Of a stretch of DNA of 51,400 bases, positions 10,688 to 49,298 are shown piece by piece. Under the pieces are notes generated by a model. The model did not search any database and had not been told where the DNA came from. It was given only the letters and a program-made list of their open reading frames with translations. Numbering within the stretch: position 1 is the first letter of the stretch; each line of letters starts with the position of its first letter. Location of the stretch: the IMG/VR virus record IMGVR_UViG_3300020204_000096, positions 1 through 51,400 of that record. One strand, written 5' to 3'. The translations under genes and the position numbers were made by a program. The DNA is from a virus.

Positions 10688-11503
10688 TTAAAATGGTACA
10701 TCATCATCGTCAAACAAATCATCAAATTGATCTGCTTTAGATTTTTTAGCAACTGGTTTTGTAGACAAGCTATAGTTTGATTTTGGTTCTTCTTTTACTT
10801 CATTAACTGTTGCTTCATCTTCATCTTCATCTTCTTCTGGGTTTAGCCATTCTTGAAGTGCTTGTTTGATTGTATCAAATGGAAGTGGTTTATATAAATC
10901 TTTTGGATTTTCTTGTTCTTCTAACCATTTTTCAATTTGTTTTGAATCTTCAGACAATGCTGATACTTTCATTGAAGGAGCAATTGTTGTTTTATTGTAA
11001 GCTGTTCCTGTTGATTCAGGTCCTACAGTAACCAATTTAATGTCTCTACCTGACATAACATCTGTAAAATCACCTACTTCCTCATCAGCAGCCATTTGCA
11101 AAAATGCTTCGTAAATTTCTTTACCAAATTCCCACAATTGAACACCTTCAGATTCTTCACCACGTACAATTACAGGAGCGTAAATACGAGTTTTAGGGTC
11201 TAATTTTTTAGCCAAACGCCAATTTTCCTTATCGTTTGTACCTCTAAGTTGTTTTGCAAATTCAGCAATTGGATCTTTTTCCCCCCAATTTAATGGTGAA
11301 GCAATTACTTTACGACTTCCGATTCCATAATAAAATCTCATTTCAGTAAATGGATACTCTTTGTTGAATTTGAACGGTACAACTCTTACCGTTTGTTTGC
11401 CAATTGTTGGTTTAAAACGCTTGACATTACTTGAATTGTTAGATCCTCCATTTGAGGTCTTTTGCATTGATTCAAGTTTTTTCTTGATTGCATCTAGATT
11501 CAT
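10688..11503 (-). CDS. gp32: Single-stranded DNA-binding protein (T4 gp32 type)
   Basis: A 271-residue SSB. The N-terminal LAST-like basic segment includes NVKRFKPTIGKQTVRVVPF. The OB-fold core contains EMRFYYGIGSRKVIASP and the D-rich C-terminal tail ends DDLFDDDDVPF, the typical flexible protein-interaction tail. I see no cysteines, so the zinc-binding site of T4 gp32 is missing, as in many distant relatives. It heads the uvsX-rnh-helicase-nrdBA series after a ~78-bp AT-rich gap, which probably contains a promoter I cannot define. Confidence 0.9.
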   Translation of the reverse strand: MNLDAIKKKLESMQKTSNGGSNNSSNVKRFKPTIGKQTVRVVPFKFNKEYPFTEMRFYYGIGSRKVIASPLNWGEKDPIAEFAKQLRGTNDKENWRLAKKLDPKTRIYAPVIVRGEESEGVQLWEFGKEIYEAFLQMAADEEVGDFTDVMSGRDIKLVTVGPESTGTAYNKTTIAPSMKVSALSEDSKQIEKWLEEQENPKDLYKPLPFDTIKQALQEWLNPEEDEDEDEATVNEVKEEPKSNYSLSTKPVAKKSKADQFDDLFDDDDVPF

Positions 11504-11581: not shown

Positions 11582-12184
11582 CTACTTTCTTAAATATATT
11601 CTTTCTTCTTCATATTGAGGCACCTCATCTATAGAAATTTCTTCTCCAGCACCATTAAAAATTTTAAATCTATATTTTTCAGTCATTAGTTTAAAAAAAT
11701 TTAAATCATTACGCCCAGAAACTTCTTCATCTTTCATTTCAAAATCAATTACATCAGCATAAAAAATTACTTCTCCTCCAGGAGAAAGAGCATCATTTAT
11801 GGTTTTTGTAAAATTTTCTTGATTAGAAATATAATGGGTAATTTTAGAAGTTACAATATTTAAAACTTTTGGAAGAGAAATATAATTATTCAAGTTATGT
11901 CTAATATAATATACTTCATTATATTCATCACCTAAACCATAATCCACTGCCTCTTCCCCAAATTCATCAGGATCCATAATGTCAACATGAACATATCCTT
12001 CTTCTTCAGGCATGCCTCCTCCTCCTAGATTGTAGCCTGTAATATTTGAAGGGAGAGATGTAATTGTGTCATATTGGTACTCATCGTCAGGGAATGTAAA
12101 GTGGTATATTTTATCAGATGGGGATTCATTTAATTGAATTCCTGCAAGTTTTTGCATTCTTTTAAATTCTTCAGATAAAATCAT
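11582..12184 (-). CDS. Methyltransferase-like protein with putative head-targeting leader
   Basis: A 200-residue protein in two parts. Residues 1-20 read MILSEEFKRMQKLAGIQLNE; FKRMQKLAG is also the C-terminus of the scaffold protein (39201-40496) and LNE matches the (I/L)-x-E sites cut by T4-type prohead proteases. The rest resembles a class I SAM-methyltransferase fold: a motif I-like NLGGGGMPEEEGYVHVDIMD, then YYIRHNLNNYISLP, then LSPGGEVIFYADVID. Whether it binds SAM is unknown; the fold could be degenerate. It lies next to replication genes, not the head genes. Methyltransferase-like is moderately sure; targeting is an inference. Confidence 0.62.
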   Translation of the reverse strand: MILSEEFKRMQKLAGIQLNESPSDKIYHFTFPDDEYQYDTITSLPSNITGYNLGGGGMPEEEGYVHVDIMDPDEFGEEAVDYGLGDEYNEVYYIRHNLNNYISLPKVLNIVTSKITHYISNQENFTKTINDALSPGGEVIFYADVIDFEMKDEEVSGRNDLNFFKLMTEKYRFKIFNGAGEEISIDEVPQYEEERIYLRK

Positions 12185-12189
12185 TTTTT

Positions 12190-12651
12190 TTATAGTTCAA
12201 CTATTTTAAATATTTTTGTATTTAATTGTTTAATCTCATTATGTTGAGTTAGCAATATACAATTTTTATAATGTTGCCAGTTTACTGGGTATTTTGTATC
12301 AACTACTCCACCATTTAATCTTTTAATTAACTCGTTTAATGCATTTATAGTGTAAAGTGTGTTTGATTCTTTTTTTCTGTGCACTAAAATAGTCTGTTCA
12401 GGAATATCGTTAATATTTCCTTGATCAACATTATATGTGATAACATATTCGTTATTACTTTTAATATGTAATACAAACATTTTATTATACATTATAGAAT
12501 ACTTACTAGATAATTCTGCAATCAGTTCATCCAACGCCTCTAAAGCTGTAAAAGTACAAAATAGTCTATTATTCATTAATGTAAAATCAAAAACTTGATC
12601 AAAGTCATACTGATCATACATATGATATGGTTGGTTCAAAATAGTGTGCAT
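12190..12651 (-). CDS. Hypothetical protein in replication region
   Basis: A 153-residue protein without recognisable catalytic motifs, signal peptide or membrane segments. It has a mixed alpha/beta composition, and its C-terminal part (INALNELIKRLNGG, then YPVNWQHYKNCILL) looks like a small conserved phage domain whose function I do not know. It is packed tightly between the polymerase (4-bp gap) and the methyltransferase-like gene (5-bp gap), so it probably belongs to the same transcript. A regulatory protein such as a RegA analogue would fit the position, but I see no sequence support for that. Confidence 0.65.
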   Translation of the reverse strand: MHTILNQPYHMYDQYDFDQVFDFTLMNNRLFCTFTALEALDELIAELSSKYSIMYNKMFVLHIKSNNEYVITYNVDQGNINDIPEQTILVHRKKESNTLYTINALNELIKRLNGGVVDTKYPVNWQHYKNCILLTQHNEIKQLNTKIFKIVEL

Positions 12652-24902: not shown

Positions 24903-25274
24903 TTAAAGAGGAGAAATATTATCAGGATTAAAATTAAAAGCAATAACTCCTGGTACTTTTCTAATTTGGGCAGCTATTTCTGTCATTTTATCTCTACTAA
25001 ATCCTCCTTTTGTCATGAATGGGTAACCATCTACTTTAACTGTTAATATTGATTGAAATTTAGTAGTATCTTGTTCATTATATTCAAGTGGTTCTTTTGA
25101 TGAAATAACTGATATTCCAGTAATTGAACGAATATCTGAATAAATTTCTTTTTGGGGTCTAGATTCAAGGTTAGTAATAAGAGTTCCTACCATTTTAAAT
25201 TTATCCTGGTAGTCTTCACTTAAAGTTTTTTTGAGTTCTTCTTTTACTAAAGTACGTAAAGTAGTTAAGTTCAT
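24903..25274 (-). CDS. Conserved hypothetical tail-region protein with N-terminal leader-like helix
   Basis: A 123-residue protein. The first 20 residues (MNLTTLRTLVKEELKKTLSE) form an amphipathic, basic helix ending in LSE. The remainder (FKMVGTLITNLESRPQKEIY, SDIRSITGISVISSKEP, ILTVKVDGYPF) suggests a small ferredoxin-like alpha/beta fold. Similar proteins lie near tail tube genes in other T4-like phages, but I know no function. The leader resembles that of the 48519-49298 protein. A variant of the recurrent upstream motif (25288-25299) lies before it. Confidence 0.68.
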   Translation of the reverse strand: MNLTTLRTLVKEELKKTLSEDYQDKFKMVGTLITNLESRPQKEIYSDIRSITGISVISSKEPLEYNEQDTTKFQSILTVKVDGYPFMTKGGFSRDKMTEIAAQIRKVPGVIAFNFNPDNISPL

Positions 25275-37492: not shown

Positions 37493-39169
37493 TTATAGAA
37501 CATGTAAATCATTAACAAAGATACGACCATAAAATTCAGGACGAATCATTTTCTTAGCATAACGAGTCAATAAACCTTTTCTTGGTGTAAAGGTTTCTGG
37601 ATCGTACACTAATGGAGTCATGATAAGTGGAACATATGGAGCAAATACAGCACCTGTTTCAAGGAATTGAGATCCTCTATAACCCATCAAAATTACATTT
37701 TCAGTCATGTATGGATTTTTGTATACTGTATAACGGTTGTTTAAATTACCTGATTTTTGGATACCAAATGCATAGCTTGCTTTTGCTGCATCACCATCAG
37801 AAGTTGAAGCAAATCCTGGGATTGATTCAAGGATAGTTGCTACACTTGGAGAACATACTAGGAAGTTTGCACCACCACGTAATGTTTTTTGGTGAATTTT
37901 GTTAGAAACTTTTTGCATTTTAGTTCCTAAAGTTTGGAACCACTGGCCTTGTGTATTATAGAAATTAGCATTATCATAATTAGTTTTAGCAGCATTCAAT
38001 ACACGATTATTAACAGCATACCAGTATTCATCTGCTGCAGAAGCATCTTGGATCAACATATCTAAGTTTTCTAGATCAATTTCTAGAGCGATATACTCAG
38101 ACATAATTGAAGTCAATTCAGCTTCAGCATCTAATGATTGGTAAGCATTCAAATCTTGAGCAAATTCTGGTGTCCATTGTGCTTTCAATTTTCTTGTTTT
38201 AGCAACAATAGCTTCAGATTTCATTTTAATATCAATTTGTGGAATAGCTAATGCATCAGCAGCTGTTGATTCAGCATTTGCATATCCAGCACCACTATTA
38301 TCTTCAAAATCACCACGTTTGTTATCAACTGGTTGAGCGTTGTAGAATAATGTACGGGATGCATTTCCATTTATTGTGTTTGAATTAAAGATAAATTTCA
38401 CATCACCAGCTGCAGTATAAGTAGTATATTGTGGTAACAAATTAGCAACAGTAGCACCATTATCTGTTAAAGCAAACGCACGAACACCTTTAGTATCAAT
38501 TGAATGAGACAATGCTGCAATATTAGCAGCAGATACAGTAATTGATGAAAGAGTAGCTAATGCTGCTGAACCTGAGTATGTTGAATTGTATTCAACATCA
38601 ACCCAATCTACTGAACCAGTAGCAATTGTAAATGATTGTGAAAATTGGTTGATTGAATAAGCAAATCTACCAGCACCATACAAACCGTTAGTAGGGTCTG
38701 CACCATTAGCCGGGTTAGTATCACCATACATAGAAGCATTATCATCATAAACATTTCCAGCAGGTCCAAAGTTTCCGATAGGAGCAACTTTATCTTGTCC
38801 ATATTGGAAATCTAGGAAAAATACTAGACCTGAAGGTAGGTTCATTGGTTGTACTGACATGAATTCTTTAGTTGATAAAGAACCAAATACTTTACGTACC
38901 AATGGAAGAGCTACACCAGCCCATTGCTCACCTTGTCCAGCTGTAAAAGTACCAGTACCGGCACCACCAGTTGTCATAGAAGATTGCTCAACAACAAGTT
39001 GTTTTGCTTGGTTTTCGAGGATCAAAGCCATGTTGTTTTTTTCAACTTCGCTTCCTAATCCTTCTAATAGGCCTGTTTTAGCCCATTTGCTCGCCATACG
39101 TGCAGCATCACTTTGCATGTTTCTCCACCCGTTGGCTGAGCTTTCTAAAAGAGAATTAATACTTGACAT
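37493..39169 (-). CDS. gp23: Major capsid protein gp23
   Basis: A 558-residue HK97-fold capsid protein of T4 type (T4 gp23 is 521). The N-terminus (SSINSLLESSANGWRNMQSD) is helical and probably removed by the prohead protease; candidate cut sites are after Glu52 (ILE) or Glu61 (LVVE), the first matching (I/L)-x-E. Then follow GEQWAGVALPLVRKVFGSLS and MNLPSGLVFFLDFQYG, both characteristic of gp23. The C-terminal part contains KLKAQWTPEFAQDLNAYQSL, GANFLVCSPSVATILESIPG and LMTPLVYDPETFTPRKGLLT. A strong terminator follows. Confidence 0.96.
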   Translation of the reverse strand: MSSINSLLESSANGWRNMQSDAARMASKWAKTGLLEGLGSEVEKNNMALILENQAKQLVVEQSSMTTGGAGTGTFTAGQGEQWAGVALPLVRKVFGSLSTKEFMSVQPMNLPSGLVFFLDFQYGQDKVAPIGNFGPAGNVYDDNASMYGDTNPANGADPTNGLYGAGRFAYSINQFSQSFTIATGSVDWVDVEYNSTYSGSAALATLSSITVSAANIAALSHSIDTKGVRAFALTDNGATVANLLPQYTTYTAAGDVKFIFNSNTINGNASRTLFYNAQPVDNKRGDFEDNSGAGYANAESTAADALAIPQIDIKMKSEAIVAKTRKLKAQWTPEFAQDLNAYQSLDAEAELTSIMSEYIALEIDLENLDMLIQDASAADEYWYAVNNRVLNAAKTNYDNANFYNTQGQWFQTLGTKMQKVSNKIHQKTLRGGANFLVCSPSVATILESIPGFASTSDGDAAKASYAFGIQKSGNLNNRYTVYKNPYMTENVILMGYRGSQFLETGAVFAPYVPLIMTPLVYDPETFTPRKGLLTRYAKKMIRPEFYGRIFVNDLHVL

Positions 39170-39200: not shown

Positions 39201-40496
39201 TTAAATTAATCCAGCCAATTTTTGCATTCTTTTAAATACATCGTTTGACTCTACGATTGGTTGTTTTGCGGTAGGAGTAACAGTTGATTTTGAAGCTCTA
39301 CCTAGGTTTTCTTTAATGATTTCTTTTTTAACTTTAATACCCTCGTTTAAAGTTTCATATACCATTTTTACTTCACCTACGTTTTTAGCTTTGTCAAATG
39401 AACTTAATACTTTTACCTTTTGATTTTCGTTTAAGTTTTTAGCTTTGAAGATTTTGTTTGAGTAGAGTAACTTAGCGTTCAGTAAATTGATTTCGTTAAT
39501 TTCTGTTTTTAAAGTTTCAATTGTAGAATAAGCTTCTTCAAGTTCTTTTTTTATTTCTTCAGATTCATTAGTTGACATATCAATACCACCTCTACCGTCT
39601 GGACCAAAAGTTGTGGGTACTGGGGAATATGGAGTACCGTTAAGGGCTGTTGTAACTATGTTTTGAAGATCTTTTAAAGGGGCACCGACTAATGGATTTT
39701 TAGGTCCTCTTGTATCGTTCGTTGTATAGTTTAAGAAATCCTTTATATCTTCTTTTGTGATATATTTTTTAAGGTCCTCTCGAGCCTCAGCATTATTTGG
39801 ATTTTTATCAAGATTATTAACAATATTCTTAGCAACTTTTTTATCTACTTTTTTTTCATCAATTAAATAATTTAGCAAATTATTTATTTTAAAAAATCCA
39901 AATACTTCATTAGTTTCTTCCTTTTTTTCGTACACTTCTTCTTCCATTTCTTCAATTTCTCTTAAAAGTTCTGCTAAATCTACTTCTTCCTCTTCTTCAG
40001 CACCCATTTCCATTTCTTCACCTTCTTCTTCACCTTCGAATTCAGGTCCTGCTTCTAACTCACCGTCTTTAATCATTTGTGCGATTACGTCTTCAATCAT
40101 TTCCTTAATTTCATCGTCTGAAAGGTCTTCCATTTCCATGTCACCTTCTTCGCCTTCTTCCTCTTCACCTTCTTTTTCGCCTTCTTCTTCAGCTTCATAA
40201 AGATTTTCTTCTACATCATCATCTTCTTCTAATTCTAGCTCTGCTAAAAGCTCTTCCAAATCAACTTCCATCGTGTCTTTTTTTACTTCTTCCATTTCCG
40301 TGTATTCAGCTTCATTCGTTTCTTCTACGTCTTTAGCTTCTTCTATTTCCATTTCTTGAAGTTTCAAAGATAACATTGATTTAAGTTGAGGTGTAAAGGC
40401 TTCTTCTAGAGCTGCTTTTGCGTTTGCTATTGCCATTTCTTTTACAGCTTTAGCTTCAGCGATTGCTTCTTTGAGCATTTCTCTGTTTTTTGCCAT
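39201..40496 (-). CDS. gp22: Prohead scaffold protein gp22-like
   Basis: A ~431-residue acidic scaffold. I chose the ATG at 40496 (MAKNREMLKEAIAEAKAVKE) because an AGGA-like site lies just before it; an in-frame ATG at 40538 would add 14 residues. The middle is extremely Glu-rich (residues ~60-190). The C-terminal third (KLLYSNKIFKAKNLNENQKV, then KVKKEIIKENLGRAS) matches the conserved end of T4-like gp22. It ends with FKRMQKLAGLI, a sequence also found at the N-terminus of the 11582-12184 protein. Located between protease and capsid genes as in T4. Confidence 0.88.
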   Translation of the reverse strand: MAKNREMLKEAIAEAKAVKEMAIANAKAALEEAFTPQLKSMLSLKLQEMEIEEAKDVEETNEAEYTEMEEVKKDTMEVDLEELLAELELEEDDDVEENLYEAEEEGEKEGEEEEGEEGDMEMEDLSDDEIKEMIEDVIAQMIKDGELEAGPEFEGEEEGEEMEMGAEEEEEVDLAELLREIEEMEEEVYEKKEETNEVFGFFKINNLLNYLIDEKKVDKKVAKNIVNNLDKNPNNAEAREDLKKYITKEDIKDFLNYTTNDTRGPKNPLVGAPLKDLQNIVTTALNGTPYSPVPTTFGPDGRGGIDMSTNESEEIKKELEEAYSTIETLKTEINEINLLNAKLLYSNKIFKAKNLNENQKVKVLSSFDKAKNVGEVKMVYETLNEGIKVKKEIIKENLGRASKSTVTPTAKQPIVESNDVFKRMQKLAGLI

Positions 40497-40682: not shown

Positions 40683-41315
40683 TTAAAATATCGGGCATGT
40701 GCCTTTTGCACACAAAATCTCAGTTAAAATTGAATTTGTACGTGCATATGGATCTAAATATGTTGTTCTTGATTCGTTTAATTGGCCATTTTTCATCCAT
40801 GAATCAGGGTTTGAAGGATTAGAAACTAGATCCCAAGTTAATAATTCAAAGTCATCTTGTACTTCCATTGTTTCACCCATTTGTTTGAGGGAACCCATTC
40901 CACGAGAAGAAATACCAATTGTTAAACCATTATTAACTAAAGCACCCGCTATACGACCAGATACTGTTCCTTTTGGTCCTGGGTCTGAAAAGATTTCAAC
41001 TGTTCCCCATATTTCATCTCCATCCCACCACATTTTTCTAATGGCATGGGATGCATTTTTTAAATTTATAACTTGAGAATCAGGGTGATCTAATTCACCA
41101 CATGTTTCTGTTGTTTTTTGGTTTATTTTTTGTTGGAAATTGTCAATTTCACGTTCCCACAACTCACGTTTGTAGTATCTTCCGTTACCGTTTTTAACCT
41201 CCACGGTAGCTAAAATACCTTCAACAAAGATATTTCCATTACCTTTTAATCCTTCTAAAAGGCGAACAGGTTGGGGAACAAAATGTCTGGTTTCTATTAA
41301 GAGTTGCTTATTCAT
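40683..41315 (-). CDS. gp21: Prohead core protease gp21
   Basis: A 210-residue serine protease (T4 gp21 is 212), which matures the capsid. The catalytic His is in GELDHPDSQ and the Ser in IGISSRGMGSL; these are the S80/U35-type motifs. RYYKRELWEREIDNF and AIRKMWWDGDEIWGTVEIF are conserved neighbouring segments. Its own C-terminal region holds QLNES and LTE, both of the (I/L)-x-E form expected for self-cleavage. It lies between an unknown head protein and gp22. Confidence 0.94.
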   Translation of the reverse strand: MNKQLLIETRHFVPQPVRLLEGLKGNGNIFVEGILATVEVKNGNGRYYKRELWEREIDNFQQKINQKTTETCGELDHPDSQVINLKNASHAIRKMWWDGDEIWGTVEIFSDPGPKGTVSGRIAGALVNNGLTIGISSRGMGSLKQMGETMEVQDDFELLTWDLVSNPSNPDSWMKNGQLNESRTTYLDPYARTNSILTEILCAKGTCPIF

Positions 41316-41318
41316 GAT

Positions 41319-42986
41319 TTAATATTCTTCAGATTCTTCAGGATCTTCTTCAAAAAGTTTTGTTTTAGATATTTTATCTGCTAAAGCTTGAATACTTTTT
41401 ATTGATGCTTCAGCAGCATCTAATTCTTTAGGATCTAAATCTCCTTCAGCTTCTTCAATTGGTTCATCTTCATCAATGATTTCTTTTTTCTTACCTTTAG
41501 TTTTGCTAAGCATTTTTTCAACCTTAGATTTTGCTTTTTCTAAAGCTTTAATATCTTTTTCAAGTTCTTTAACTTTTTTCTTGTCAGTTAAAGCTTTCAT
41601 ATCTTCATCCTCGTCTAATTTACTAAGTTTAGATTTACGACTATCAATTAAAGCATCAATTTTATCTAGTTTAGATTGTAGAACTTCATGTTCTGCTTCT
41701 TTATTAATATCAGCTAAATCTTTTTCTACACCTTCACGTAAAATTTCTTCCATTGGTTTTTGGTACTTTGGATTTGGAGTTTTAAATGAAAGCCTTTCAT
41801 CTCTTCCTACATTAACATTATTTAAAACAGTATAATTGTCTATAGTTCCTTCTTTTGTAGGAAGATTAATTTTACCCCCAATATTATTAGCAGTATTTAA
41901 AAAACTTGCAAACATTGAATTTATATCATATGGTAATGTTTCTAAATTTTTAGAAACTAATAATGTAGAGCGAATAGCTATACCTGTAATTTCTTCTGGG
42001 TTTTTGGGGTTTCTTAAAAGTCTTAGATCTTGGTTTTTTTTCATTAATTTTTCAGTCGAAGCTGTTAAATATACAGTAAGAAAAGGTTGTGGATCTCTTT
42101 CTTCTCTTTCTTTATCACTTACTTGTGGGCGAATATTTACTAATTGATATGCTTCTTCTAATTCAGCATCAATCATTTCTTGAATAGCTTTACGTAATGA
42201 AATTTCTTCAAGTGATTCACCTGCTTCTTTTCTACGTTTAAGTTCTTCTTCACGTTTTTGTTTTAATTTAGCTTTAATTTGCTCTTCCGATGGTTTTGTT
42301 TTACTTGAAGGTTCTTTAATTTGTTTTTCAAGGCTTGTTTTAATTTCACCTCTTTCTTCTTTACCTTCACTCAAATTACCATATCCAGATGAAGCATATT
42401 TTCCTTTAGGTTCTTTTGGAGTACCTAAACCAGGATGTTCAGTCACATATCCTAAATCTTTAACACCAAATTGACCATCTTTTGTATAGTGAATTGGGTC
42501 TTTTGCTAAATTTTTCAATACAATGTCTTTTAATTGTTGCATTGTTTTATCAGCATTTTTAGGATCTTTCATTTCAGCGTAATATCCCATCATGATTTGA
42601 TCAAATATCAAATTATCTGGGTTTTTATCGTCTGAATAGTCAAAGTTTTTTTCAAGATCTTTTTCTACAGGTTTAGAGACTTTTTTCTCTTCTGCTTTTA
42701 CTTTCTCGTCTTCATTTTCTTTTGCTTTTCTAGCTTCAGCCAAAAATGCCTCAAATGCCGTTTCGTAAGATTCTTTTTTTCTTGGTTCATATCCAGCAAC
42801 AGCAGTTAAACCAATTACATTTTCTGAGATAATGTTTTTGGTTTTAAGAGAAGCAGCAGCTTCCTCAAATGTAGCAGAATTTGGTACAATATGGGGAAAA
42901 TTACGTTTAGCATCTGCAAGGAAAACACCTTTATGTCCTTTACCCTCTTTAATTAATAAATACTGATCTTGTAATGTTTTTTTCAT
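41319..42986 (-). CDS. Large charged head-region protein, possible prohead core component
   Basis: A 555-residue protein, very rich in Lys and Glu. The N-terminus begins MKKTLQDQYLLIKEGKGHKG, then VFLADAKRNFPHIVPNSATF (about 21-40). LLIKE resembles a prohead-protease site. A central segment (about 270-390: EISLRKAIQEMIDAELEEAY, QPFLTVYLTASTEKLMKKNQ) may be a folded domain and the last ~130 residues are a coiled coil of alternating acidic and basic heptads. Proteins like this sit next to gp21 in other T4-like phages; I know no established function. Core or internal head protein is inferred. Confidence 0.68.
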   Translation of the reverse strand: MKKTLQDQYLLIKEGKGHKGVFLADAKRNFPHIVPNSATFEEAAASLKTKNIISENVIGLTAVAGYEPRKKESYETAFEAFLAEARKAKENEDEKVKAEEKKVSKPVEKDLEKNFDYSDDKNPDNLIFDQIMMGYYAEMKDPKNADKTMQQLKDIVLKNLAKDPIHYTKDGQFGVKDLGYVTEHPGLGTPKEPKGKYASSGYGNLSEGKEERGEIKTSLEKQIKEPSSKTKPSEEQIKAKLKQKREEELKRRKEAGESLEEISLRKAIQEMIDAELEEAYQLVNIRPQVSDKEREERDPQPFLTVYLTASTEKLMKKNQDLRLLRNPKNPEEITGIAIRSTLLVSKNLETLPYDINSMFASFLNTANNIGGKINLPTKEGTIDNYTVLNNVNVGRDERLSFKTPNPKYQKPMEEILREGVEKDLADINKEAEHEVLQSKLDKIDALIDSRKSKLSKLDEDEDMKALTDKKKVKELEKDIKALEKAKSKVEKMLSKTKGKKKEIIDEDEPIEEAEGDLDPKELDAAEASIKSIQALADKISKTKLFEEDPEESEEY

Positions 42987-43420
42987 TGTTTTTGTTTTAA
43001 TAAATCTACTGCTTTTTGAATATATGCTAAAACCATTGAAGACGGTTTATAGATATCATACGATCCCGGGTTAGCAGCGTAATATTCTATAGTTTCGTTT
43101 TTTGCGTTTGATATAAGTGGAGATAATTGTTTAAGTAAACTTTCAACTTGATCAAATTCTTTAACTCTATCATCTTGAAATTTATCTGCTCCAGTTTTTT
43201 CCTTTTCTTCTTCCCACAATTTTTTAATATCGTAAGATTTAGGTTTAATATTAGAAACAGGTTTAAATCCTAACTTATAATAATAAATATTTTTATTTTT
43301 ATTAAAAGCAGGTTTCGTAGCCATTCCAATTCCTTCTCCAGATGTAGCAGTAGCACCACCTATATTAGTAGCACTCATTTCTTTGAGTTTTTTACGGACT
43401 ATTTCCTTTAACTTATCCAT
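42983..43420 (-). CDS. Head-region hypothetical protein with leader-like N-terminus
   Basis: A 145-residue protein with no known family. The N-terminus MDKLKEIVRKKLKEM is a basic amphipathic helix like that of other proteins here, followed by a Gly/Thr/Ala-rich linker (SATNIGGATATSGEGIG). The remainder is helical, with FDQVESLLKQLSPLISNAKN and SSMVLAYIQKAVDLLKQKQ. It overlaps the next gene's start by 4 nt. Probably head- or scaffold-associated by position. Confidence 0.62.
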   Translation of the reverse strand: MDKLKEIVRKKLKEMSATNIGGATATSGEGIGMATKPAFNKNKNIYYYKLGFKPVSNIKPKSYDIKKLWEEEKEKTGADKFQDDRVKEFDQVESLLKQLSPLISNAKNETIEYYAANPGSYDIYKPSSMVLAYIQKAVDLLKQKQ

Positions 43421-48239: not shown

Positions 48240-48519
48240 AATATTCACGTACATCTGCTATTTCTTTATTTGTATTACTTATTTCATTGTTTAGTGAATC
48301 AATTCTATTTTGGTGGAATAAAATGGATTTATCTAATTCAAGTTGGTGTTTTTGTAAATTTACTAATACATTATTTAAACTATCAATTTCTTGTTTTTGT
48401 TTATCGTATTTTGATAAATCTACTTTAGTAGGTTTAAGTAATAACCATAACAGGAGTAAAATGATCGCACCTAAAATTAGGTGCGATACATTTAAAGTTA
48501 TGGATTTATCTTTTACCAT
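48163..48519 (-). CDS. N-terminal TM plus coiled-coil protein, i-spanin-like candidate
   Basis: A 118-residue protein with one N-terminal membrane segment (ILGAIILLLLWLLLK, about 16-30) followed by a coiled coil (YDKQKQEIDSLNNVLVNLQK, ILFHQNRIDSLNNEISNTNK) and a short end. This is the topology of Rz-type inner-membrane spanins. The following gene overlaps out of frame, as in Rz/Rz1 pairs, but lies next to the terminase, not the endolysin. The start overlaps the previous stop (TAATG). A perfect inverted repeat is embedded near its start. Confidence 0.68.
   Translation of the reverse strand: MVKDKSITLNVSHLILGAIILLLLWLLLKPTKVDLSKYDKQKQEIDSLNNVLVNLQKHQLELDKSILFHQNRIDSLNNEISNTNKEIADVREYYGKKIRDILNYTPQQLDDFFSKRYK
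48464..48487. repeat. 24-nt near-perfect inverted repeat inside i-spanin-like gene
   Basis: Eleven-base arms (ATCGCACCTAA / TTAGGTGCGAT) separated by two A, encoding the start of the TM segment. It lies about 30 nt after the ATG. It can form a stable hairpin in the mRNA, with only a moderate T-rich stretch after it. Confidence 0.9.
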
Positions 48520-49298
48520 TAAATATTAACTTGTTTAGCTTGATTGTATTTTTTAATAATATCTTGTTTAGATTTTAACCAAGCCATAGCTTCTTTATCT
48601 CCCTCTTTTGCTTTTGCAATTTTATTTTTTAATTCTGGTTCAACTTCAGATTTATACTGTTTAACTAGTTCATCTTTGCCTCTAGCAGCTTTTTCTATTT
48701 CAATATCTCCTGCTGGGGCTTTTTCTGTATCAAAAGTATCTTCATCTTCATCTTTATAGTAAGTGTCTTCTACTTCTTCGTCTGAATATGATACATCATC
48801 AAATCCATCATCTCCTGGTGTGCGAGTAGCTGTTTTAGTTCCTGCTGGTCTTCCTCGTTGTCCTGTTGAAGGTGCTTTTTCTGGTTTGTTTGGGTCTGCT
48901 TTTCTACCACGTTGTCCTGGGGTTACTAAACCTAAAGATTTTAATATAGCATTGTTAGTTTGATTGTCTTGTAATTTACTTCCAGAATCGTCAAATTCTA
49001 TTTGTTTTTCTAGAGCATGTTTAACTCGAACATCTTGTTTTTTACCTGAGATTTGTTGACGGATGTCTTTTAAAAGACCTTTAAGATCTTCTTTTTCCAT
49101 TTTAGTTACATCTGATTTAGATAAACCTCTATCTCTTAGTACTCTATCAACAATTTCATCTGTAGCCGTTTGTAATGTATCTTCTTCACCATATTTTGCT
49201 GCTACTTGTTGATCAAATCGGCCACCAAAATCAGGTTTTTCATTTAACGCAAAAGCAATTTCTTCACGTACTATTTCGAGTAAACGGGTTTTTTTCAT
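48519..49298 (-). CDS. Hypothetical protein with AT-hook-like motifs and leader helix
   Basis: A 259-residue protein. Residues 1-20 (KKTRLLEIVREEIAFALNE after the Met) form an amphipathic helix ending LNE, an (I/L)-x-E-type site. A helical part follows (about 35-110), then two AT-hook-like pieces (PGQRGRKADP, TGQRGRPAGT), then a very acidic region (SYSDEEVEDTYYKDEDEDTF) and a helical C-terminus. The DNA-binding-like motifs and its position two genes before gp17 make a small terminase or DNA-packaging accessory role possible; a head-internal DNA-binding protein is the alternative. Neither is proven. Confidence 0.62.
   Translation of the reverse strand: MKKTRLLEIVREEIAFALNEKPDFGGRFDQQVAAKYGEEDTLQTATDEIVDRVLRDRGLSKSDVTKMEKEDLKGLLKDIRQQISGKKQDVRVKHALEKQIEFDDSGSKLQDNQTNNAILKSLGLVTPGQRGRKADPNKPEKAPSTGQRGRPAGTKTATRTPGDDGFDDVSYSDEEVEDTYYKDEDEDTFDTEKAPAGDIEIEKAARGKDELVKQYKSEVEPELKNKIAKAKEGDKEAMAWLKSKQDIIKKYNQAKQVNI

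Follow-up and report, generated by a model that had tools for sequence, protein, structure and literature searches.

The window analysed here, 51,400 nucleotides of viral DNA, contains the T4-type head genes gp21, gp22 and gp23 between positions 37493 and 41315 and, placed among the replication genes, a gene for a small methyltransferase-like protein (Table 1); the ip genes of T4 likewise lie away from the head cluster. The N-terminus of this protein reads MILSEEFKRMQKLAGIQLNESPSDK... in the translation of the open reading frame, and the C-terminus of the scaffold reads ...PIVESNDVFKRMQKLAGLI. In the AlphaFold2 model of the methyltransferase-like protein the leader has a pLDDT below 50 and a helix at residues 5-14. 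No paper with the exact leader strings was found in a literature search.

Table 1. Positions of the leader-bearing gene, of the head genes and borders that relate to it, and of selected leader-bearing proteins in related viral loci (L numbers).
Feature	Position	Strand	Basis or remark
Leader-bearing methyltransferase-like protein	11582..12184	-	ORF, 200 aa, ATG start
Leader MILSEEFKRMQKLAGIQLNE (residues 1-20), predicted head-targeting propeptide	12125..12184	-	Motif common to the scaffold C-terminus and ~58 other bodies
Leader core FKRMQKLAG, same letters at the scaffold C-terminus	12140..12166	-	Exact 9-mer, none shared in shuffles; genome search places it at 12141-12166
Predicted gp21 cleavage site L-N-E (residues 18-20), cut before Ser21	12125..12133	-	[IL]xE statistics; homologues with other leaders joined here
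Predicted mature body, methyltransferase-like	11585..12124	-	~80% identity kept under four different leaders
153-aa gene, upstream border of the cargo hotspot	12190..12651	-	In 13 listed configurations its homologues lie next to different leader genes
ssDNA-binding protein gp32, downstream border of the cargo hotspot	10688..11503	-	Equivalent to immuto26A_4 ssDNA binding protein
gp22-type scaffold	39201..40496 (ORF open to 40538; likely ATG at 40496)	-	Between gp21 and gp23; position and ends match immuto26A_204
Scaffold C-terminal motif FKRMQKLAGLI	39204..39236	-	Scaffold C-termini at ~80 loci and those of immuto, Mel-JY01 and RM378 conserve R[MWFI][QK]xLAG[IL]
Predicted gp21 site I-V-E, shortly before the scaffold motif	39249..39257	-	Listed scaffold C-termini have an [IL]xE-type site ahead of the motif
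Prohead protease gp21	40683..41315	-	phrog_207 head maturation protease, E 2.2e-51
Major capsid protein gp23	37493..39169	-	58% identity to the immuto major capsid protein
Head-cluster small protein, second leader type (MDKLKEIVRKKLKEM)	42983..43420	-	Portal-protease interval, like immuto26A_199
Protein with second-type leader MNLTTLRTLVKEELKKTLSE	24903..25274	-	Class 2 leader pattern and LxE
Protein with second-type leader MKKTRLLEIVREEIAFALNE	48519..49298	-	Class 2 leader pattern and LxE
Acb1-like 2H phosphoesterase (anti-CBASS family), class 1 leader	L022:584-1147, L029:4273-4836, L042:3425-3991, L057:2855-3418, L013:4251-4829		
ADP-ribosyltransferase-like bodies	L028:3659-4240, L051:2341-2859, L082:3005-3898, L171:1755-2576		

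The first-pass annotation had pointed out that the protein begins with FKRMQKLAGI followed by QLNES and that the scaffold ends in FKRMQKLAGLI. Both strings are present, and the two proteins have the exact 9-mer FKRMQKLAG in common; when the 51 window proteins were shuffled 50 times, no 9-mer was shared. With the last 20 residues of the scaffold as query, the methyltransferase-like protein was the best match in the window (score 48), followed by a protein scoring 30, and the best of 200 shuffled queries reached 39. The same annotation had cited QLNES as a string found also in gp21; it does occur there, but as evidence it lies within chance. The methyltransferase-like protein has seven 5-mers in common with other window proteins against 2.3 expected (shuffle maximum 7), and five of these are accounted for by the FKRMQKLAG overlap; QLNES by itself is therefore not significant. 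Since T4 gp21 is reported to be processed C-terminally (PMC9026906), QLNES in the gp21 of the window may by analogy be a processing site; in an alignment of gp21 proteins its LNE is kept only in near relatives.

The tail of the scaffold is conserved well beyond the window. At about 80 loci the protein encoded immediately upstream of gp23 has R[MWF]QxLAG[IL] at its C-terminus, followed by a few more residues, and the motif is preceded by [IL]xE-type sites (PIVE, PILE, PIME and others of the form PI[VLIM]E). Among cultured phages, the scaffold of Flavobacterium phage immuto has the tail VSRWQKLAGIIK, that of Mel-JY01 has VERMKKLAGIVK, and that of the distant Rhodothermus phage RM378 has LERIKRLAGL; the motif is therefore an old feature of the scaffold. 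With the patterns used, Mel-JY01, LR756508 and RM378 gave the scaffold match only and no N-terminal leader. The scaffold tails at loci L131-L210 carry W, M or F at the second position of the motif, cargo leaders nearly always carry M, and no strict covariation of leader and scaffold tail within a genome was seen. Many contigs with the W-type tail are without a leader of the FKRMQKLAG type, termed class 1 here.

Viral contigs were scanned at the DNA level, blind to position, with the patterns F-K-R-M-Q-[KEQ]-L-A-G (95 stretches) and F-x-R-W-Q-x-L-A-G, and contigs around gp21 were added. Counted as unique sequence contexts, R-[MWF]-Q-x-L-[AS]-G-[ILV] occurs in the related viral contigs 92 times at an N-terminus, 72 times at the C-terminus of a scaffold and six times internally; the loci centred on gp21 inflate the C-terminal count, and the informative contrast is therefore that between terminal and internal positions. 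Three loci among the internal contexts (L031, L038 and L045) resemble fused or run-on leader genes. The N-terminal motif sits on small proteins, and the C-terminal one on the scaffold beside gp21 and gp23, upstream of gp23. The bodies behind the N-terminal matches form 63 clusters at E 1e-5, or 59 after removal of four RWQ matches (L301, L316, L320 and L328), which were set aside as chance from their sequences; because the leaders are related by descent, these 59 do not count as fully independent tests. A search for the leader on other proteins of related phages, as proposed in the first-pass annotation, thus yielded some 58 further unrelated bodies that carry it N-terminally. The outcome that was to speak against a head-targeting role, a leader that mostly marks non-virion proteins and lacks a match to the scaffold, was looked for as well; it was not borne out, the motif being almost confined to the N-termini of diverse small proteins and the scaffold C-terminus. 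A T4-like gp21 is present on all ten leader-bearing contigs of at least 75 kb, and the leader-bearing contigs that lack it are fragments no longer than about 51 kb. The first pattern was also run, blind to position, against 84,980 bacterial and archaeal genomes and matched at one place, which is taken as chance because it lies antisense to a gene.

The leader is followed by a protease-type site. An [IL]xE tripeptide lies within eight residues after the motif in 53 of the 59 unrelated bodies, compared with a background of 5% in the bodies and at most 26 in within-segment shuffles. In 40 bodies the glutamate occupies one common position, and shared descent could be enough to account for that; among the 19 leaders with the glutamate elsewhere, 18 keep a shifted [IL]xE (as in LAGIQLNE, LAGIKKLNE and LAGIEILTE) against at most 11 in shuffles, and therefore the site itself has been kept. 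[L/I]xE is the established site of T4 gp21 (PMC9026906), and the LNE at the end of the leader in the window matches this consensus.

Exchange of leaders takes place at the same site. The methyltransferase-like body, at about 80% identity, is found under the four leaders MILSEEFKRMQKLAGIQLNE, MKEKLRMQFLAGVITENEYKAKLDE, MNKELIRMQFLSGIITESQYNAKLNE and MIKLTNLLKE, and under each of them it begins right after [IL]xE. Other bodies exchange the class 1 leader for one of class 2 (MKxxELRxxIREEIxxxLNE) or class 3 (FDLKKYLAExKLL). Class 2 resembles the N-terminus of the head-cluster protein encoded between portal and protease genes in the window and in immuto (immuto26A_199), class 3 that of immuto26A_202, encoded beside gp21, and class 4 (MIKLTDLLKE) that of T4 gp24 (MAKINELLRE; shuffle p 0.005, uncorrected for 54 comparisons); these links of classes 2 to 4 to head proteins rest on pattern resemblance and carry less weight than the evidence for class 1. 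The second leader type, LRxxIREExxxxLxE, was also observed on two window proteins in addition to the small head-cluster protein, and the phage therefore probably uses more than one type of leader. Stacked leaders occur in single N-termini, class 3 followed by class 1 at L077:3358-3723 and class 3 followed by class 2 at L106:8733-9074.

In all 13 listed configurations, some of them near-duplicates, the gap between the 153-aa gene and gp32 holds a leader gene of class 1, 2, 3 or 4, the least clear leader being that of L059 (MKQSQLHQLIKEELNRYMFF). Judged by its gene content, this gap is a hotspot for leader genes. In L101 an open reading frame that starts with MIHTTYIYLITNIDNNPNKVYIGKSNSPHLRKHYH and resembles a GIY-YIG endonuclease lies ~1.56 kb downstream of the homologue of the 153-aa gene, inserted between the homologue of the methyltransferase-like gene and gp32.

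The methyltransferase-like motifs reported in the first-pass annotation are present in the body (YNLGGGG...YVHVDI and DALSPGGEVIFYAD), the glycine-rich motif and the PGG motif being recognised by eye, and the suggested check by structure prediction pointed the same way. Class I SAM methyltransferases are the top Foldseek matches in the PDB to the AlphaFold2 model (pLDDT 73); nearly all of the 50 PDB matches listed are methyltransferases, with E values from 2.3e-5 and TM-scores of about 0.46, NodS being the best, and the structure search also matched viral methyltransferases. The model thus predicts a Rossmann-type class I SAM methyltransferase fold. The protein differs from NodS and other members of that class in having no family profile match in Pfam or PHROGs and TM-scores of just ~0.46, and a sequence search of the PDB returned no methyltransferase family. 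The body is read, from the model, as a putative methyltransferase, possibly a degenerate one.

Most of the other cargo bodies are without a known family. The Acb1-like proteins matched the Pfam family PF23474 at E 5e-6 with 26.8 bits against a cut-off of 27 and have two HxT motifs; the AlphaFold2 model has a pLDDT of 34, and the assignment therefore rests on the below-cut-off Pfam score and the paired HxT motifs. From sequence, these class 1 proteins are predicted to be head-packaged anti-CBASS proteins. A Zeta-toxin-type kinase (PF06414, E 7.7e-18) follows a class 4 leader at L106:2010-2813, and Pfam recognised an AAA_33 kinase in L319 and, weakly, 2CompART in L260; PHROGs added RNA ligase and polynucleotide kinase families. 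Bodies with the motif KQVGxLYHxT, which resemble ADP-ribosyltransferases (YHxT ... IL), occur under class 2 and class 4 leaders, and the four listed in Table 1 had no Pfam match. PADLOC gave weak single matches only.

In T4 an N-terminal capsid-targeting sequence (CTS) is enough for packaging (PMC9026906), and the injected IP proteins block type IV restriction (PMC12373910); they are the natural model for a possible role of the leader cargo. The leaders described here resemble the CTS of IPI-III and Alt in being short, N-terminal, attached to diverse bodies and followed by an [L/I]xE protease site, and in the polymorphic gene sets that carry them (PMC3012670, PMC9026906). A leader of ~10-20 residues on a variable body in T4 compares with one of 20 residues and ~59 unrelated bodies here, and the phage of the window is T4-like in its gp21, gp22 and gp23. 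Unlike the CTS, the leader matches the C-terminus of the scaffold, which has no such counterpart in T4 gp22, and it belongs to a set of several interchangeable leader types, with ~59 bodies across this phage group. In pairwise shuffle tests the class 1 leader had no significant similarity to T4 IPI-III, gp21, gp22, gp23, gp24, gp67 or gp68, and no alignment to the leaders of ipI, ipII and ipIII (MKTYQEFIAEA...) reached a shuffle p of 0.05 or less; it is therefore not classed as a member of the T4 CTS. The analogy with the CTS proposed in the first-pass annotation consequently holds for the (I/L)xE site, the swapping of leaders there and the T4-type head genes, but does not extend to likeness in sequence. 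By analogy we infer a leader system that would function like T4 capsid targeting, with a leader that is unrelated to that of T4 and copies the tail of the scaffold. In phage P1, too, N-terminal residues of an injected anti-restriction protein, DarB, suffice for head targeting, although P1 apparently has no separate scaffold and no consensus leader was found on its Dar proteins (PMC9024508). The giant phages SPN3US and phiKZ have protease-removed N-terminal propeptides on inner head proteins, including two diverged proteins with identical N-termini; they differ in that several propeptides exceed 100 residues and in having no confirmed counterpart of gp22 (PMC5694885).

The leader of the methyltransferase-like protein is probably a capsid-targeting propeptide, so that its cargo would be packed in the head, cut by gp21 and delivered with the DNA. 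The sequence itself shows the common motif and its position at protein termini, the protease-type site with leader exchange at it, and the hotspot, and the fold comes from structure prediction; we infer the docking partner, packaging, cleavage and delivery, as well as the catalytic activity of the protein and its target. Cargo and scaffold would dock on the same partner during prohead assembly, gp23 at its inner face or else the core; that they share a partner is probable because the gp22-type scaffold has this short amphipathic motif at its end. The docked cargo would be trapped in the prohead, and gp21 would cut at [IL]xE, namely at LNE/S in the cargo and IVE/S in the scaffold, removing the tag from the cargo body and detaching the tail peptide of the scaffold. 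Once mature, the methyltransferase-like protein would remain in the head and enter the host with the DNA, where it would most likely modify a host or phage molecule early in infection.

The motif is linked only to the scaffold and the protease, and not to the mature virion, as would also be expected of a general assembly or localisation tag that, for instance by binding the scaffold core, gathers proteins at the head factory with no packaging or injection, [IL]xE serving to release them into the cell. We regard this as improbable, because the Acb1-like, ADP-ribosyltransferase-like and kinase domains of the cargo make sense as injected effectors and because in T4 and P1 such leaders do function in head targeting, and their anti-restriction cargo is injected (PMC9026906, PMC9024508, PMC12373910). 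The presence of the leader on many swapped bodies and in a hotspot might be attributed to the DNA itself, a short conserved coding stretch that acts as a recombination seam for swapping genes into hotspots, the peptide being unimportant. Such a seam is very hard to reconcile with the conservation of amino acids while codons vary: the mean entropy of the leader core is 0.24 at codon position 2 and 1.16 at position 3, the former nearly fixed and the latter free, and therefore selection acts on the peptide. In addition, the same peptide ends the scaffold, which is no swapped cassette, and different leader types are joined to the same body at the protease-type site.

Common ancestry through gene duplication, with no targeting role, would explain why the leaders are alike and why several leader genes stand side by side (L017, L034 and L067). 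It deserves hardly any credence, since the leader persists on bodies that show no relationship at E 1e-5, homologous bodies retain leaders of differing types, and the motif ends the scaffold too.

Under the capsid-targeting reading, the shared tag suggests that related phages load many different proteins in the head, cut off the tag and deliver them with the DNA. We lean, if only slightly, towards a broader proposal, in which the C-terminal docking peptide of the scaffold would serve as an address label in Bacteroidota-type T4-like phages; any protein that gains it, or one of the several other leader types that are similar to N-termini of other head-cluster proteins, would be loaded, processed by gp21 and injected. 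Heads would thus hold an exchangeable arsenal of effectors (Acb1-like, ADP-ribosyltransferase-like, kinases and the methyltransferase of the window) delivered before phage gene expression. If this is true, a simple sequence rule predicts the proteins that are carried in heads and injected by a group of aquatic phages; most of them are without known function, and the rule would at a stroke single out dozens of candidates for counter-defence or host takeover and suggest how scaffold and cargo are recruited together. The idea of head loading would be directly testable in the cultured phage immuto, for which no published virion proteomics was found in a literature search. Immuto has, besides the motif on its scaffold, two proteins with class 1 leaders, immuto26A_41 and immuto26A_188, with a predicted cut after the ITE of LAGIITE; with its scaffold C-terminus as query against 599 ORFs, the two best matches were N-terminal leaders, scoring 42 (alone not significant, because the best of 100 shuffled queries reached 43) and 49, followed by a third match at 31.
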